This document shows, piece after piece, positions 1 through 14,067 of a DNA stretch of 64,000 nt. How positions within the stretch are numbered: position 1 is the first letter of the stretch; each line of letters opens with the position of its first letter. Below the pieces are notes generated by a model, which was not told the DNA's origin, did no database searches, and saw only the letters and a list, made by a program, of their open reading frames with translations. The stretch comes from Phaeocystidibacter marisrubri (GTDB lineage: Bacteria > Bacteroidota > Bacteroidia > Flavobacteriales > Schleiferiaceae). Position numbers and translations under genes: made by a program. The DNA is taken from positions 62,001 to 126,000 of the forward strand of contig NZ_WBVQ01000003.1 in the NCBI RefSeq assembly GCF_008933165.1. The letters are read 5' to 3'.

Positions 1-2125
1 CGGGTTCCGTGTTAATCACTTGGAACATGATGTCAATCTCAGTGGAGAAACGGAAGAGGGACTGGCCTGCTAGCATATAATAGGCTACCGCTCCTAAGGC
101 GTAAATGTCACTTCGGAGGTCGGAGTTCTTTGGTGTTTTTATTCGTTCAGGCGCCATATATAGCGGGGTGCCCGTCACTTGAGTGGTGCGTGTTTGAGCA
201 GCTTCTTCGTCAGAAAGGTCCTTTACCAAACCGAAGTCGAGCACTTTCACGACATCATCTTCTCCTCCCCGTTGCACCAACATGATGTTTTGTGGTTTGA
301 TGTCACGGTGTATCAAACCAATGCTATGAGCTTCACGAATGGAAGCGGATGCTTGGCGAAGAATGTGAAGCGCACGCTCAAATGGCAACTCGCCTTGCAT
401 CTGAACGATTTGAGCCAAGGTGAAACCATTTAATAGCTCCATGGCATAGTAGAAGATTCCGTCTGGAGTTCTACCAAAATCATAAATCTCGATAGTATTC
501 GGATGGGTGAGACGCGAAGCCAATTGAACTTCTCGCTCAAATCGCTCTACCACTTCGGCTGATATGATATTTGGCTTCAGGATCTTAATGGCGGTCGGTC
601 GTTTGAGCATGGCGTGATGGGCGAGGTATACTTCGCCAATTCCCCCTTCGCCAATCTTCCGCACCATTGTGTATTGACCCAATTGGGCAGCTTCGCCTAC
701 TTTTCTGTTCAAGCGAACGTAGCGTAAGGATGAGTACAAGCTGTAGGTGAGTACAACCGCAAGAATTAAAATCAATATTCCGAAAGTCGCGTCGAGGTAA
801 ATGAGTGGTTCAAATGCCTCTTCGTAATCTACTTCGGTTACCAGTCCAAAACCAAATTCAGGAAACCAATGATAGGCACCAATGACTTTCACTCCTCGAT
901 AGTCGCGATACGGGTCGATTAAAACGTCTGTAATCGCAATGGAAGAATCACTTTTGGATGCAATAGAAAGGGCAACAGGTTCCGTGAAATTACGTGAAAT
1001 CAAAGGCTGTGTAGGCTTGTAGCCTTCGGTGAGGTCACCTCCTGGATCGCGAAGAGAAACCACCAATGAACTGCCGGCTTCTTCTTTGTTCGGAACTAAA
1101 CCAATCGATTTGAGTTGATCTACAAATCGGCTTTCGGTGAGCATCATTCCCTCCGCATTGAAGGCATAAGTCTCACCTGTTTTTCCCATTCGGGCCACAT
1201 TCACAATTTCGCTAAAACCTTCGTCGGCATATCTACCCACACCGAAGTAGCCAATGAGCTCTCCGATTTTATTGTAAATGGGATTGCCCGCCCAAACGAT
1301 GGGTTTGGAATAGATGGAACGAACATCATAGTCGTCGTAAACCAATTTATTGGGATCAAATGGGGCTTTAAATGTGCCTTCTCTAGCGTTCGCTTCAAAA
1401 AGTTGTCGGAAGCCTGCGGGATTGAGGCGATTGCCAATCACACTGCGATCGGACGCAGCGAATTCATATCCGGCTTCGTCAAAGAGATTGTAACCGGCGC
1501 TGTTGGTGTTCTTTAAATAAGGACGAAGAATACCCGTTAGCGTATCTTGCCATGGCGAGAATTGAAGCCGCTCTATTTCTTCAGGGCTATTTCTATAGCG
1601 AAGGATGTAGTGGATTTCATCAGAAACTTCAGGTGTGTTGCACCAAAATCGAACAGAATTGCGAAAATCTCGGATCCAGTATTGCATGGCCACCACATCG
1701 GCATCCAAGACGGCTTGAAGTTGTTCGCGACGGATTTCCTCTAGACTGTTTTTAACCTGTCGGTGAGACCAGTATCCCAATACAATGAGAAGCACGAAAG
1801 TGACGATGAGGGTAATGCCAAAACGTTGGCGAGTACCAAAAAGACGCTCCATCCAAATCACCGAACGCTTGGTGAATGTGGTGTCGCTCAACTTCGGTGA
1901 GAGATGTTGTCGAGGTTTTTTTCGCGATGCAGTGTCCGTTGCATTTCCCGAATTCTCGACCATAATGGTCTCTTCACTATGGTTGGCTAAGAGCGTACGC
2001 AACTCTTCTAGAATCTCGGTGTCACCTTTGGAAGCCTGACGAATGTAGGCTTCTCGTTCCCGAGGTTTTAGATCGATGGCCTCAATGAATATGGCCTTTA
2101 CTTTCTGATGCTTTTCAGCGTCCAT
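1..2125 (-). CDS. Membrane Ser/Thr protein kinase with extracytoplasmic sensor region (3' end cut off by window)
   Basis: The start codon at 2125 follows the TAA of the sigma gene with no spacer, and a GAGGGAAA ribosome site lies inside that gene's end. About 708 residues are visible. An N-terminal cytoplasmic stretch (1-100) is followed by a membrane helix (about 103-121), a roughly 320-residue extracytoplasmic region resembling a double-Cache sensor, a second helix (about 445-463) and a Hanks-type kinase domain from about 485. Kinase motifs are the glycine loop IGEGGIGEV, AIKILK with the ATP lysine (about 513), HRDIKPQN (about 604), DFG (about 628) and GTPLYMAPE (about 651). All catalytic residues visible are intact, so it should be active. 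The reversed order, with sensor first and kinase last, is less common than kinase-first. Inference: it phosphorylates the sigma factor encoded just upstream. Confidence 0.92.
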   Translation of the reverse strand, partial: MDAEKHQKVKAIFIEAIDLKPREREAYIRQASKGDTEILEELRTLLANHSEETIMVENSGNATDTASRKKPRQHLSPKLSDTTFTKRSVIWMERLFGTRQRFGITLIVTFVLLIVLGYWSHRQVKNSLEEIRREQLQAVLDADVVAMQYWIRDFRNSVRFWCNTPEVSDEIHYILRYRNSPEEIERLQFSPWQDTLTGILRPYLKNTNSAGYNLFDEAGYEFAASDRSVIGNRLNPAGFRQLFEANAREGTFKAPFDPNKLVYDDYDVRSIYSKPIVWAGNPIYNKIGELIGYFGVGRYADEGFSEIVNVARMGKTGETYAFNAEGMMLTESRFVDQLKSIGLVPNKEEAGSSLVVSLRDPGGDLTEGYKPTQPLISRNFTEPVALSIASKSDSSIAITDVLIDPYRDYRGVKVIGAYHWFPEFGFGLVTEVDYEEAFEPLIYLDATFGILILILAVVLTYSLYSSLRYVRLNRKVGEAAQLGQYTMVRKIGEGGIGEVYLAHHAMLKRPTAIKILKPNIISAEVVERFEREVQLASRLTHPNTIEIYDFGRTPDGIFYYAMELLNGFTLAQIVQMQGELPFERALHILRQASASIREAHSIGLIHRDIKPQNIMLVQRGGEDDVVKVLDFGLVKDLSDEEAAQTRTTQVTGTPLYMAPERIKTPKNSDLRSDIYALGAVAYYMLAGQSLFRFSTEIDIMFQVINTEP

Positions 2126-2704
2126 TTATTTTCCCTCCAAATGTATATTGGAACGCAGCCAAGCTTTAATCATGGTCCATTCCGCCTCGATTTTCCGTTT
2201 TGACACGCCCATGGCATCGGCCACTTCTTGAACGGTCATGCCGGTAAAGAACCGCATTTCCACAATTTTAGCTTGAAAGGGATCTCTGGCTTCTAAGAGG
2301 GTAAGTGCTTCGTCAATGGCCAATACATGTTCATCAACTTCTGGATCTAGAAGTTTGTAATCGACGTCATCTACATTCACTTTGTGAACATCACCACCTC
2401 GTTTCTTTCGCTTCTTGGTTCGGGCATGGTCTACCAAAATACGGCGCATCGCTTGGGCGCTCACCGCTAAAAAGTGGGTTCTTCCTTGCCAATCTACATC
2501 ATCCTGACCTATCAATTTCACGTAAGCTTCATGCACTAAACTGGTGGGTTGTAGTGTATGGCCTCTGTTTTCATAACGCATGTAATTGCCCGCCATTCCT
2601 CGCAATTCTTCATACAAAAGCGGGAAGAGTAGGTCGGCCGCTTTGTCATCTCCATTTTTCAGTTGATGCAAGGCTTGTGTAATATCGCTTCTAAATGACT
2701 TCAT
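2126..2704 (-). CDS. ECF-like sigma factor of the kinase-linked TIGR02999/Sigma70_ECF type
   Basis: 192 residues. The hallmark region HTLQPTSLVHEAYVKL (49-64), followed by DWQGRTHFLAVSAQAMRRIL and VDHAR, matches the TIGR02999 family of ECF-like sigma factors, which often sit beside Ser/Thr kinases. Region 4 helix-turn-helix covers about 140-190 (MRFFTGMTVQEVADAMGVSK). In normal ECF factors region 2.2 reads D-A-E-D before LVQE; here the equivalent residues are Q-P-T54-S55, so the acidic RNA-polymerase contact is missing and two phosphorylatable residues stand in its place. The stop codon abuts the kinase start, so the two are co-transcribed and probably translationally coupled. No anti-sigma gene is adjacent. 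Confidence 0.93.
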   Translation of the reverse strand: MKSFRSDITQALHQLKNGDDKAADLLFPLLYEELRGMAGNYMRYENRGHTLQPTSLVHEAYVKLIGQDDVDWQGRTHFLAVSAQAMRRILVDHARTKKRKKRGGDVHKVNVDDVDYKLLDPEVDEHVLAIDEALTLLEARDPFQAKIVEMRFFTGMTVQEVADAMGVSKRKIEAEWTMIKAWLRSNIHLEGK

Positions 2705-2762
2705 AGAGTAGGTGGTTCTTCGAAGGGAATAGGTTCTCCGAAAGATACAAATTGCTTTGTGC

Positions 2763-3704
2763 TCAAAACGGAAGATGGCTCAAATCCGTATTCCCGCCAC
2801 ATAGGATTATTCCAACGCGCTTATGCTGAAAGAGCTCTGGATAGGCTCTGACCACTGCAAGTGGAACGCCTGCAGAAGGTTCAATTACTTGCTTCATGCG
2901 CTCCCATGTCCAGCGCGTGGCTTCAATAATTTGAGGATCACTTACGGTTAAGATGTCGCGCACATGTTTTTTAATCACCGGGAAATTGACGGAGCCTAGG
3001 CCTGTTCGAAGTCCATCGGCCACTGTAGTAGAAGCGCGAGCAGGAATGATTTCCCCTGCTTGTAGGCTCCGTTTGGCGTCGTCTGCCAACTCCGGCTCTC
3101 CGGCATAAATATCTATCGAGGGGTTCATGGCCACGGCTGCAAGACAAGTGCCCGCAAGAAGTCCGCCTCCACCAACGGCAACGAGGAGAATATCCAGATC
3201 GTGCACATCTTCCATCAGCTCTAAAGCGGCGGTACCTTGACCCCAAATTACATCTTCATCGTTGCTGGGATGGATAAAATAGGCCCCTGTTCTGTCTTGA
3301 AAGTCGGCGGCAGTCGCTTCTCGGTCGGCCTGTGTCGCTTCGCAGTAAATGAGCTTAGCGCCATATCCTTCCATCGCTTCAACTTTTGATTTGGGAGCGT
3401 TCTTTGGCACAATGACAGAGCACGGAATACCTAGTGTTCGTGCTGCTAAAGCAACCGCTTGACCATGATTTCCCGAGCTGTGGGTGCAAACCCCTTTCTC
3501 CACGGCATCTGCTGGAAGTTGAAGAATGGCGTGCGTTGCGCCGCGCATCTTGAATGCTCCCATACGCTGAAGATGTTCAGCTTTAAAGAAGAACTCAGCG
3601 TTGAATTCAGCATTGAGCGTGCTGGAAGTCAGTACCGGTGTGCGGTGAATGTGTGGAGAAATCTTCTCCAACACAGAACGGTGGTAGTTTAAATCGGGAT
3701 GCAT
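2763..3704 (-). CDS. Threonine dehydratase / serine racemase-like PLP enzyme
   Basis: 313 residues from the ATG at 3704 (MHPDLNYHRS). An in-frame TTG 81 bases upstream would add a hydrophobic stretch that coincides with a terminator hairpin, so I chose the ATG. Fold-type II PLP motifs are clear: KAEHLQRMGAFKMRGA with the Schiff-base lysine, SSGNHGQAVA, the phosphate-binding GGGGLLAGT, and a C-terminal IILCGGNTDLS. There is no C-terminal ACT-like regulatory domain, so this is the short catabolic threonine ammonia-lyase or serine racemase type rather than the allosteric biosynthetic IlvA. It deaminates threonine or serine to 2-oxobutyrate or pyruvate; which is preferred cannot be read from the sequence. 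The leader contains two terminator-like hairpins (see those entries). Confidence 0.88.
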   Translation of the reverse strand: MHPDLNYHRSVLEKISPHIHRTPVLTSSTLNAEFNAEFFFKAEHLQRMGAFKMRGATHAILQLPADAVEKGVCTHSSGNHGQAVALAARTLGIPCSVIVPKNAPKSKVEAMEGYGAKLIYCEATQADREATAADFQDRTGAYFIHPSNDEDVIWGQGTAALELMEDVHDLDILLVAVGGGGLLAGTCLAAVAMNPSIDIYAGEPELADDAKRSLQAGEIIPARASTTVADGLRTGLGSVNFPVIKKHVRDILTVSDPQIIEATRWTWERMKQVIEPSAGVPLAVVRAYPELFQHKRVGIILCGGNTDLSHLPF

Positions 3705-3713
3705 GAAAACAAA

Positions 3714-3744
3714 AATAGCCCCCGCAATGAGAACGGGGGCTATT
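3714..3744 (-). terminator. Terminator-like hairpin directly upstream of the threonine dehydratase start
   Basis: A perfect 11-bp GC-rich stem (3714-3724 with 3734-3744, loop 9 nt) is followed on the minus strand by a T-rich tail that runs into the ATG at 3704. It faces the dehydratase and stands between any upstream promoter and that gene, which is an attenuator-like position. The same bases read in frame as an Ala/Val/Leu/Ile-rich stretch. Confidence 0.65.
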
Positions 3745-3802
3745 GAGGGTCGAAAAGAAGAGTCAATAAAGACTCTACCAACCAAAAACCTAACCTATGA
3801 AA

Positions 3803-13510: not shown

Positions 13511-14067
13511 GGCTTGTACAGGTATTGTGATTCTGTTACTCGCTCTTGTAATTGTTTTCTCGCTCGGCTCAGTTGCGATCGACTCGTATTCTCATCAATG
13601 TTGAGCATTTCCGCAATCTCTCTGTGACCGTATCCCTCTATGGCATGAAGGTTAAAAACCGTTCGGTAGCCCAAGGGAAGTTCTTCTATTAGTTGAAGGA
13701 GGGCGTGTGTTGTTTCTTTCGATTCAACGGGAGCATGTTGTGGTTCTACCCAATCCTCCTCTTCATTTTCTACAAATAGATTCTTCTTGTAGCGAAGGTG
13801 ATTCAAACTCTCATTTACCATGATTTTTCGAATCCATCCTTCAAAAGAACCCTCTTCGTTGAAGTCCTCTATCTTGTTGAACACTTTCATAAAACCGTTC
13901 ATCAAGACTTCTTCTGCTTCGTCCTTCCGCTTCACGTACCGAATGCAAACACCGAGCATCTTTGCCGCAAAGCGGTTATAGAGCTCATGCTGCGCTTTTT
14001 TGTCGTGTTCACGACAACGCGCTAGCAGGTCTTCGGTTGTAGTTGAGTTGAGTCGGAAGAGTTTCAC
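13507..14067 (-). CDS. RNA polymerase ECF-type sigma factor
   Basis: 186 residues, GTG start at 14067. Region 2 covers about 15-85 (YNRFAAKMLGVCIRYVKRKDEAEEVLMNGFMKVF, the canonical D-E-A-E-E acidic patch present), ending in FEGWIRKIMVNESLNHLR; region 4 helix-turn-helix covers about 120-175 (LPLGYRTVFNLHAIEGYGHREIAEML with SRSQLSRARKQL). Unlike the sigma at 2126, its acidic region 2.2 is intact, so it fits the classic anti-sigma-controlled class. It is first in an operon with a membrane anti-sigma-like protein and an outer-membrane barrel, so it may respond to envelope conditions (inference). Confidence 0.93.
   Translation of the reverse strand: MKLFRLNSTTTEDLLARCREHDKKAQHELYNRFAAKMLGVCIRYVKRKDEAEEVLMNGFMKVFNKIEDFNEEGSFEGWIRKIMVNESLNHLRYKKNLFVENEEEDWVEPQHAPVESKETTHALLQLIEELPLGYRTVFNLHAIEGYGHREIAEMLNIDENTSRSQLSRARKQLQERVTESQYLYKP

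Follow-up and report, generated by a model that had tools for sequence, protein, structure and literature searches.

Two ECF43 sigma factor systems have been studied at the bench in the literature cited here, EcfP-PknT of Vibrio parahaemolyticus and EcfK-PknS of Xanthomonas citri (PMC8999054, PMC13147305). The partner kinase of EcfP, which the sequence-only reading of the present locus had called PpkT, is named PknT in the cited reports (PMC8999054, PMC13147305, PMC8103513). In the same accounts, EcfP has no acidic residues in region 2.2 and is switched through one threonine. PknS has been proven at the bench to be a sigma kinase, EcfK keeps an acid next to its phosphorylated T51 and carries a second phosphosite, T106, in its linker, and the phosphatase of the X. 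citri cluster, PppA, is described as the partner of another kinase, PpkA (PMC13147305).

Here we analyzed a 64,000-nucleotide stretch of the genome of Phaeocystidibacter marisrubri (NZ_WBVQ01000003.1, positions 62,001 to 126,000), referred to as the window, together with the genes that adjoin it. Like EcfK-PknS (PDB 9EED), the locus combines an ECF43 sigma carrying a region 2.2 threonine with an adjoining membrane-bound Hanks-type kinase that has the same N-terminal domain; like EcfP, its sigma lacks the acidic residues, with QPTS where EcfP has STTA. The sequences make it probable that the sigma, the kinase and a PP2C phosphatase form a reversible phospho-switch of three genes, turned on by the sensor kinase and off by the phosphatase.

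Results

The sigma factor and its predicted phosphosite

The features of the locus are listed in Table 1. Both family matches of the sigma exceeded their curated cut-offs (TIGR02999, 207.5 bits against a cut-off of 126.15). It ranked first among the 9 PF07638 matches in a search of the genome, with 204.4 bits compared with 51.1 for the second, so a chance match to this family is not at issue. The protein is of the PF07638/TIGR02999 kind, has a threonine where the acidic DxxD is replaced, and adjoins a Hanks-type kinase; the label "ECF43-type" denotes this combination of family match, region 2.2 motif and adjoining kinase rather than a match to a published ECF43 group model.

Table 1. Features on the minus strand of the window and the evidence for each
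Feature	Window position	Strand	Evidence or remark
Membrane-bound Ser/Thr kinase, residues 1-708 of 770	1..2125	-	PF00069 3e-51 on full ORF
Kinase catalytic domain, in-window part (residues 485-708)	2..673	-	PF00069 6.6e-44
Extracytoplasmic dCache-like sensor (residues 119-444)	794..1771	-	dCache_1 sub-cut-off match; hydropathy
Kinase N-terminal domain (residues 1-52), candidate sigma dock	1970..2125	-	HMM E 6.4e-15
ECF43-type sigma, 192 aa	2704-2126	-	PF07638 1.3e-60; TIGR02999 (Sig-70_X6) 1.5e-61
Q52-P53-T54-S55 codons	2540..2551	-	In place of the region 2.2 acidic motif (DAED); phosphosite predicted at T54
ATTTGTATCTT	2742..2752	-	Conserved in short gap 5' of sigma gene, 3 genus members aligned

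Two observations of the sequence-only reading were borne out directly: region 2.2 runs from Q-P-T-S into LVHEAY, and the sigma stop codon (TAA, 2128-2126) is followed immediately by the kinase ATG (2125-2123). In the remaining 8 PF07638 matches of the genome (L002-L009), region 2.2 was acidic when read by eye, so that within this genome QPTS is specific to the window sigma. Upstream of the sigma gene, the conserved ATTTGTATCTT, which may resemble a Bacteroidota -7 box, is a possible promoter element.

The earlier proposal left the phosphosite between T54 and S55. Among 78 distinct related sigmas, the window sigma included, the T54 column held 72 threonines and 6 serines, while the S55 column was A, E, D, G or S in 51, 10, 8, 5 and 4 sequences, with all four serines coming from the window's genus and G017. 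Given a phosphorylatable residue in 78/78 against 4/78, T54 is the likely switch; S55 is very unlikely to be the site and was rejected. The phosphothreonines described for EcfK (T51, in QATE) and EcfP (STTA) correspond to T54 (PMC13147305, PMC8999054). In a profile alignment with PDB 6dxo, itself weak, the E of the AED pairs with the T54 column and the D with the S55 column. A second phosphosite in the linker was ruled out, since the linker (residues 97-134) contains no Ser or Thr and EcfK T106 therefore has no counterpart, leaving T54 as the only plausible switch. An acid directly after the threonine was kept in 18 of the 78 sigmas, so a charge-less region 2.2 is not universal. In X. citri, EcfK T51A is described as still functional (PMC13147305), and a T54-only switch is thus not assured in this family.

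Domain order of the kinase

The full kinase ORF (L010:12125-9813, minus strand) continues beyond the window, its remainder lying at L010:9813-10000. It contains the catalytic motifs K514 (AIK), D608 (HRD) and D630 (DFG; position counted by hand). Hydropathy revealed two strongly hydrophobic stretches, with peaks near residues 102-120 and 441-459, which makes the extracytoplasmic sensor region proposed earlier a fair reading. Its suggested Cache fold is less firmly indicated: dCache_1 matched all four homologous sensors, each below the Pfam cut-off of 45 (window sensor, 2.9e-7 and 30.7 bits). An AlphaFold2 model of the sensor from a 4-row alignment had a mean pLDDT of 44.9, with values <50 over most of the region, and a PDB search with the sensor profile returned nothing below E 0.2, the weak best match being the NagS sensor (E 0.23).

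The layout had been described as sensor-first, which overlooked a conserved cytoplasmic domain; the actual order is N-terminal domain, transmembrane segment, sensor, transmembrane segment, kinase. This layout is rare in our sample but not unique to the window family. A similar domain-sensor-kinase order was met once elsewhere, in an ECF43-adjacent kinase from an Acidobacteriota sample (L163), whose NTD-PDZ-like-multi-TM-kinase arrangement represents another sensor in another phylum. In PknS, by contrast, the kinase domain precedes the membrane and periplasmic TPRs are C-terminal (PMC13147305).

A conserved N-terminal domain in sigma-linked kinases

The cytoplasmic N-terminal domain is a helical unit of about 55 residues common to sigma-linked kinases of several phyla, PknS included. 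It lay unnoticed in the first reading of the window. The HMM that matched it in the window kinase was built from 24 other sigma-linked kinases, and a profile of 28 N-terminal segments retrieved PknS from the PDB (E 6.6e-9). The structural model contains three predicted helices with pLDDT block means of 71-83. No Pfam family, anti-sigma families included, matched the domain at the thresholds used.

We compared the occurrence of the domain with the presence of a neighboring sigma. It was found in 13/14 sigma-adjacent kinases (the exception, L068, fell below threshold) versus 2/16 others (Fisher p 2.2e-5), and the contrast persisted when three HMM-training loci were left out (10/11 versus 2/16, p 7.7e-5). 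Independent contrasts gave 2 pairs on supported branches and 5 on all branches, and with 2 supported pairs the phylogenetic contrast cannot reach significance. Among 20 other Bacteroidota ECF43 loci (L096-L115), the kinase adjoins the sigma in 17 (with the opposite orientation in L108), and all 17 kinases carry the domain, a description rather than a test since most of them trained the HMM. Unlike in the window, the kinase domain directly follows the N-terminal domain in these 17, and the other 3 loci have no kinase beside the sigma.

Apparent kinase-free carriers of the domain were also considered. In L152 the domain ends one ORF and the kinase occupies the next, probably a split frame; in L156 it is joined to an apparent TolB-type stretch, which may be a deletion. 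L148 at first resembled a domain protein lacking a kinase but was ruled out, because its complete gene (L163) encodes a kinase at the C-terminal end.

Most likely, the domain docks the sigma, a role that would explain why it accompanies ECF43 sigmas. There is also a real, if less than even, possibility that T54 does mediate activation of the sigma by the kinase but that the domain is an autoinhibitory or dimerization element, or an inherited remnant. The segment corresponding to the domain is described as absent from the density of the PknS crystal (PMC13147305), and the domain also turns up in some kinases beside which no sigma was seen (8/30 in a second set, besides the 2/16 above). In the kinase tree, one large clade of 26 rows holds most domain-bearing kinases, which makes shared ancestry a partial explanation for the association between domain and sigma, and the window kinases belonging with that clade was not rejected (AU p 0.239). 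The best tree placed the window catalytic domain apart from the main group of ECF43 kinases, but we do not claim such a separate origin because the AU test keeps one clade at this value. Against this alternative, a single clade uniting every sigma-linked or domain-bearing kinase (34 rows) was rejected (AU p 0.0186; the groups were defined by trait, although the test followed inspection of the tree), implying either that at least two kinase lineages bear the domain or that some have lost it. Moreover, both L163 and the window family keep the domain N-terminal with a sensor lying between it and the kinase domain, an arrangement awkward for a cis-acting autoinhibitor.

The domain might instead be a built-in anti-sigma that tethers the sigma to the membrane until phosphorylation frees it. 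This would suit both its association with ECF43 sigmas and the lack of a separate anti-sigma gene beside the sigma, yet we consider it unlikely: EcfP is reported to lack intrinsic activity unless it is phosphorylated (PMC8999054), so that an inhibitor is not needed, and the anti-sigma families of Pfam were among those that did not match.

An adjoining phosphatase and the conserved trio

A PP2C phosphatase gene follows the kinase just outside the window, beyond the view of the sequence-only reading. Its product matched PF13672 with 41.9 bits (cut-off 24) and contains the Asp-containing motifs NEDN28, CDGVGG48, GDSR128, SDGI204 and RDNFS241, which we take to be those that matter for PP2C. The uvrC and patatin/Omp85-like genes come next, and a PALP enzyme gene, threonine dehydratase-like, lies upstream of the sigma; as stated earlier, none of these neighbors encodes an anti-sigma.

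In PknB/Stp-type operons, too, a kinase and a PP2C lie side by side, although these operons are not known to include a sigma partner. No PASTA domain matched in the full ORF of the window kinase, and the PASTA-kinase model gave 217.7 bits on its in-window part, far below the cut-off of 450.

Conserved kinase-sigma neighbors in related genomes, a check that had been suggested, were indeed found: the sigma-kinase-PP2C trio was present in 4/4 intact family loci, the window's own included, and a fifth was divided between two contig ends. All four loci encode the kinase, sensor and PP2C domains, and the trio was retained where flanking genes differ (L019). The sensor region occurred in 4/88 family genomes, the same four that have intact trios. 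The trio supplies the only Pkinase (PF00069, E<=1e-15) and the only PP2C_2 match of its genome; G000, G001 and G002 each have exactly one Pkinase (E<=1e-15) and one PP2C_2 (E<=1e-3), and three sigma-less family genomes examined (of 83) have neither at those thresholds. No PP2C was detected in the 20 other Bacteroidota ECF43 stretches, and the literature consulted on ECF43 sigmas, Hanks-type kinases, PP2C and Phaeocystidibacter kinases yielded no description of an ECF43-kinase-PP2C operon.

As the sole such pair of the genome at these thresholds, the kinase and PP2C may have further substrates, but it is quite improbable that they are a general Ser/Thr signaling pair with the sigma as one of several targets or a mere neighbor, given the persistence of the trio next to differing flanking genes, the invariably phosphorylatable T54 column and the absence of such a kinase and PP2C_2 from the three sigma-less genomes.

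Discussion

The earlier suggestion that the kinase activates the sigma through the region 2.2 threonine is well supported by homology to the described systems, by T54 conservation and by the sole PF00069 match in the genome at E<=1e-15. From these, together with the gene order and families, the loss of the acidic motif, the recurrence of the trio and the association between the N-terminal domain and ECF43 sigmas, we infer phosphorylation, its effect, dephosphorylation, docking and a signal as follows. A periplasmic ligand or stress would act on the dCache-like sensor, and the cytoplasmic Hanks-type kinase, then active, would phosphorylate T54 of the co-translated sigma, which the N-terminal helical domain of the kinase would dock. 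Phospho-T54 would give region 2.2 its missing negative charge, allowing the sigma to engage the beta' clamp of RNA polymerase and to direct transcription of its regulon. Removal of the phosphate by the PP2C encoded next would reset the switch, although the target of the phosphatase could be the kinase itself instead of the sigma.

Tentatively, and with confidence that falls a little short of even, we propose that a portable sigma-docking domain lets diverse sensor kinases control ECF43 sigmas and is kept in front despite an intervening sensor, and that the window family adds a dedicated phosphatase, yielding a self-contained operon that senses, writes and erases for one sigma.

Direct phosphorylation of a sigma factor is a recent addition to bacterial signaling, and the trio looks like a compact version of this recently discovered route. 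The operon offers candidates for two of its steps, the N-terminal domain for finding the sigma and the adjoining PP2C for ending the signal. Because no other Pkinase or PP2C_2 match was found in the genome at the thresholds used, cross-talk should be low, which would make the locus a clean test system.

Gene organization and distribution of the trio

The window spans G000:C3:62001-126000, with the sigma and kinase genes on its minus strand. The sigma stop codon touches the kinase start, as the sequence-only reading had stated: the sigma TAA is followed directly by the kinase ATG. A PP2C-type phosphatase ORF begins 37 bases past the kinase end; it lies outside the window and is part of the module. 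The sigma was present in 5 of the 88 family genomes, and sigmas of the ECF43 type were present in 57 of 395 genomes sampled across the phylum (own genome included in both counts). The order sigma, kinase, PP2C was found in all four intact family loci (the window's own genome G000 and its relatives G001, G002 and G019), with the genes flanking the trio in G019 differing from those of the others. In the family genome G017, one contig end holds the sigma and another holds a kinase 3' end with the PP2C after it, the pattern that a split trio would leave. Genome-wide (Pkinase, E ≤1e-15; PP2C_2, E ≤1e-3), G000, G001 and G002 each yielded one match per profile, both belonging to the trio, and G019 and G017 each yielded two kinase matches and one PP2C_2 match. 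Neither profile gave a match at these thresholds in G014, G018 and G020, three of the 83 sigma-less family genomes.

As a control, we analyzed the surroundings (8-12 kb) of ECF43 sigmas in 20 other Bacteroidota genomes. A kinase was found beside the sigma in 17 of these loci and was absent in 3, and PP2C was detected in none of the 20 stretches using a profile from only four proteins, which distant PP2Cs may escape. An independent search with PF13672 identified a PP2C somewhere in 13 of the 20 genomes; none of these lay within 10 kb of a sigma among the ECF43 sigmas listed (coordinates compared by eye), the nearest being 11.4 kb away in control genome G268. As far as sampled, a phosphatase next to the sigma-kinase pair is thus a feature of the window's lineage.

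The PALP gene upstream of the sigma was observed in three genus members and not in G019; the TTG given as its start probably lies too far upstream, because the ORFs of relatives begin at the MHPDL position. Three aligned genus members share the sequence ATTTGTATCTT in the short stretch that precedes the sigma gene; it may be the sigma gene's own promoter. Downstream of the trio, after uvrC, the first of two tandem patatin-like genes showed Patatin and Omp85 matches, and the second resembles the first by look only.

Features of the trio, its surroundings and two loci from other genomes (L010, the window's own locus with flanks; L156 and L163, fetched loci)
Feature	Coordinates	Strand	Evidence or remark
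Sigma gene	window 2704-2126	-	PF07638, 1.3e-60
Kinase gene, 770 aa, complete	L010:12125-9813	-	PF00069, 3e-51; extends past window start
Kinase sensor region	window 701-1843
PP2C-type phosphatase ORF, 252 aa	L010:9775-9017	-	lies 226-984 bases ahead of the window; PF13672, 41.9 bits (cut-off 24)
ATTTGTATCTT	window 2742-2752	-	possible promoter
PALP enzyme	window 2763-3785	-	kin to threo-3-hydroxyaspartate/threonine dehydratases
Two tandem patatin-like genes	L010:2373-6839	-
Second, ordinary ECF sigma	window 13540-13737	-	weak PF07638 match; acidic region 2.2
ECF43 sigma, then 1047-aa protein	L163:1888-5594	-	N-terminal domain, PDZ-like and multi-TM region, C-terminal kinase
N-terminal domain fused to apparent TolB-type stretch	L156:1548-2297	-	overlaps ECF43 sigma ORF

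A conserved threonine in region 2.2

Region 2.2 of the sigma reads QPT54S55 and then LVHEAY, in agreement with the sequence-only reading. In two studies (PMC8999054, PMC13147305), ECF43 sigmas are described as being without the acidic DAED/DxxD motif, and the Thr at the third motif position is phosphorylated by the neighboring kinase (STTA in EcfP; QATE, T51, in EcfK). The other eight PF07638-matching sigmas of the window's genome carry acidic residues in region 2.2 (by eye).

T54 is the third residue of QPTS and occupies the same position as the published phospho-Thr, based on a weak profile alignment to PDB 6dxo. It was invariant in a 25-row sigma alignment, and its column contained Thr in 72 of 78 distinct ECF43-like sigmas and Ser in the remaining 6 (bit score of at least 150 against a custom sigma profile, own included). 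At the S55 column, Ser was found in only 4 of the 78 and an acid in 18; EcfK has an acid right after the phospho-Thr, as in these 18, whereas the window sigma has S55 there. Between the two sigma domains, the linker (residues 97-134) contains neither Ser nor Thr, and the second EcfK site (T106) therefore has no counterpart. Because the T54 column is conserved as Thr/Ser, S55 is rarely Ser and the linker is devoid of both, T54 is likely the single switch of this sigma; of the two phosphosites proposed earlier, T54 or S55, the former is favored and the latter is not.

An N-terminal domain associated with ECF43 sigmas

Residues 1-60 of the window kinase had no Pfam match. Of 29 sampled phylum loci (L020-L048), 24 yielded a kinase ORF, each with a similar segment of ~55 residues near the start (by eye); a motif search detected no kinase in the short sequence of the other five loci. 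An HMM from these 24 kinases matched the four window-family kinases with E-values of 2.5e-17, 6.4e-15, 1.7e-12 and 9.1e-8, while the best of 1000 shuffled N-termini reached 0.33. A profile of 28 N-terminal segments (A3), including the window family, was searched against 177,635 distinct PDB sequences and gave a single clear match, 9eed_A (E = 6.6e-9). Weaker matches (9e-4 and up) were mostly repeat, designed and protein-A-type helical proteins and were taken as chance. According to PMC13147305, 9EED comprises residues 1-364 of X. citri PknS, whose 83-residue N-terminal segment is conserved among Xanthomonadaceae and "may play a functional role"; the first 81 residues are absent from the electron density and are predicted to form three to four helices. 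The model of the window kinase, with helices at 3-16, 21-31 and 36-49 (pLDDT block means 71-83), agrees with this prediction.

Searching eight ECF43-bearing genomes with PF00069 yielded 87 kinase matches, of which 30 were examined as loci, and an ECF43 sigma adjoined 14 of these (one downstream). The domain was present in 13 of the 14 sigma-adjacent kinases versus 2 of the 16 others (Fisher, 2.2e-5), and in 10 of 11 versus 2 of 16 (7.7e-5) without the three HMM-training loci, although the loci share descent and neither p-value is strict. In Acidobacteriota, the phylum of genome G495, 51 of 149 sampled genomes contained the domain; 22 of 30 domain loci fetched from them had a same-strand ECF43 sigma in the upstream sequence available (up to 1.5 kb per locus), and 8 did not.

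In a kinase-domain tree of 50 rows, uniting every kinase that is linked to a sigma or bears the domain in a single clade was rejected (AU p = 0.0186). Hence at least two kinase lineages carry the domain, or some kinases have lost it. The best tree places the window kinase domain outside the main ECF43 group, and placement within it was not rejected (AU p = 0.239). Two domain-bearing kinases whose retrieved loci (L085 and L087) lack an ECF43 sigma group with sigma-linked kinases, and their sigma may therefore be lost or located elsewhere. The direct fusion at L156, which has no kinase, may represent an internal deletion.

Position of the sensor

In the 24 phylum kinases, the HRD-type motif appears about 198-258 residues into the ORF, and the kinase domain therefore directly follows the N-terminal domain. 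The HRD motif of the window kinase comes much later, at 606, because two hydrophobic stretches, with ~320 presumably extracytoplasmic residues between them, separate the kinase domain from the N-terminal domain. The "sensor-first" layout described from the sequence leaves out the N-terminal domain, which precedes the sensor. L163 is apparently a second, independent case of a sensor between N-terminal domain and kinase, so the layout is rare, not unique.

Because dCache_1 matches in all four members fell below the Pfam cut-off and the predicted structure of the sensor region was an unreliable model, we call the sensor only "dCache-like". The region was found in 4 of the 88 family genomes, namely those with intact trios, and in the 395-genome phylum sample only short partial matches (23-25 bits) appeared, in 4 genomes beyond the window's own. 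Within the genus, sensor identity was 60-66% versus 85-86% for the sigma, as if the input were being retuned. A W-x7-WW motif is conserved in the C-terminal tail (~755-769 of the L010 kinase) of all four trio kinases (L010, L016, L017 and L019).

Proposed mechanism and implications

A signal acting on the sensor would activate the kinase, which would phosphorylate T54; the phosphate would restore charge in region 2.2, permitting polymerase binding and transcription, and the PP2C would reset the switch. The middle steps, from kinase activation to transcription, follow from the two published ECF43 systems together with the conserved residue. The signal step, the reset and the docking role are suggested by anatomy, and we infer that the N-terminal domain may be a sigma-docking module mainly because it stays foremost while the parts that follow it change. 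Compared with known phospho-activated ECF43 systems, the window trio adds a phosphatase and has its sensor relocated. The part of the finding with the widest reach is the N-terminal domain, which is shared across phyla.
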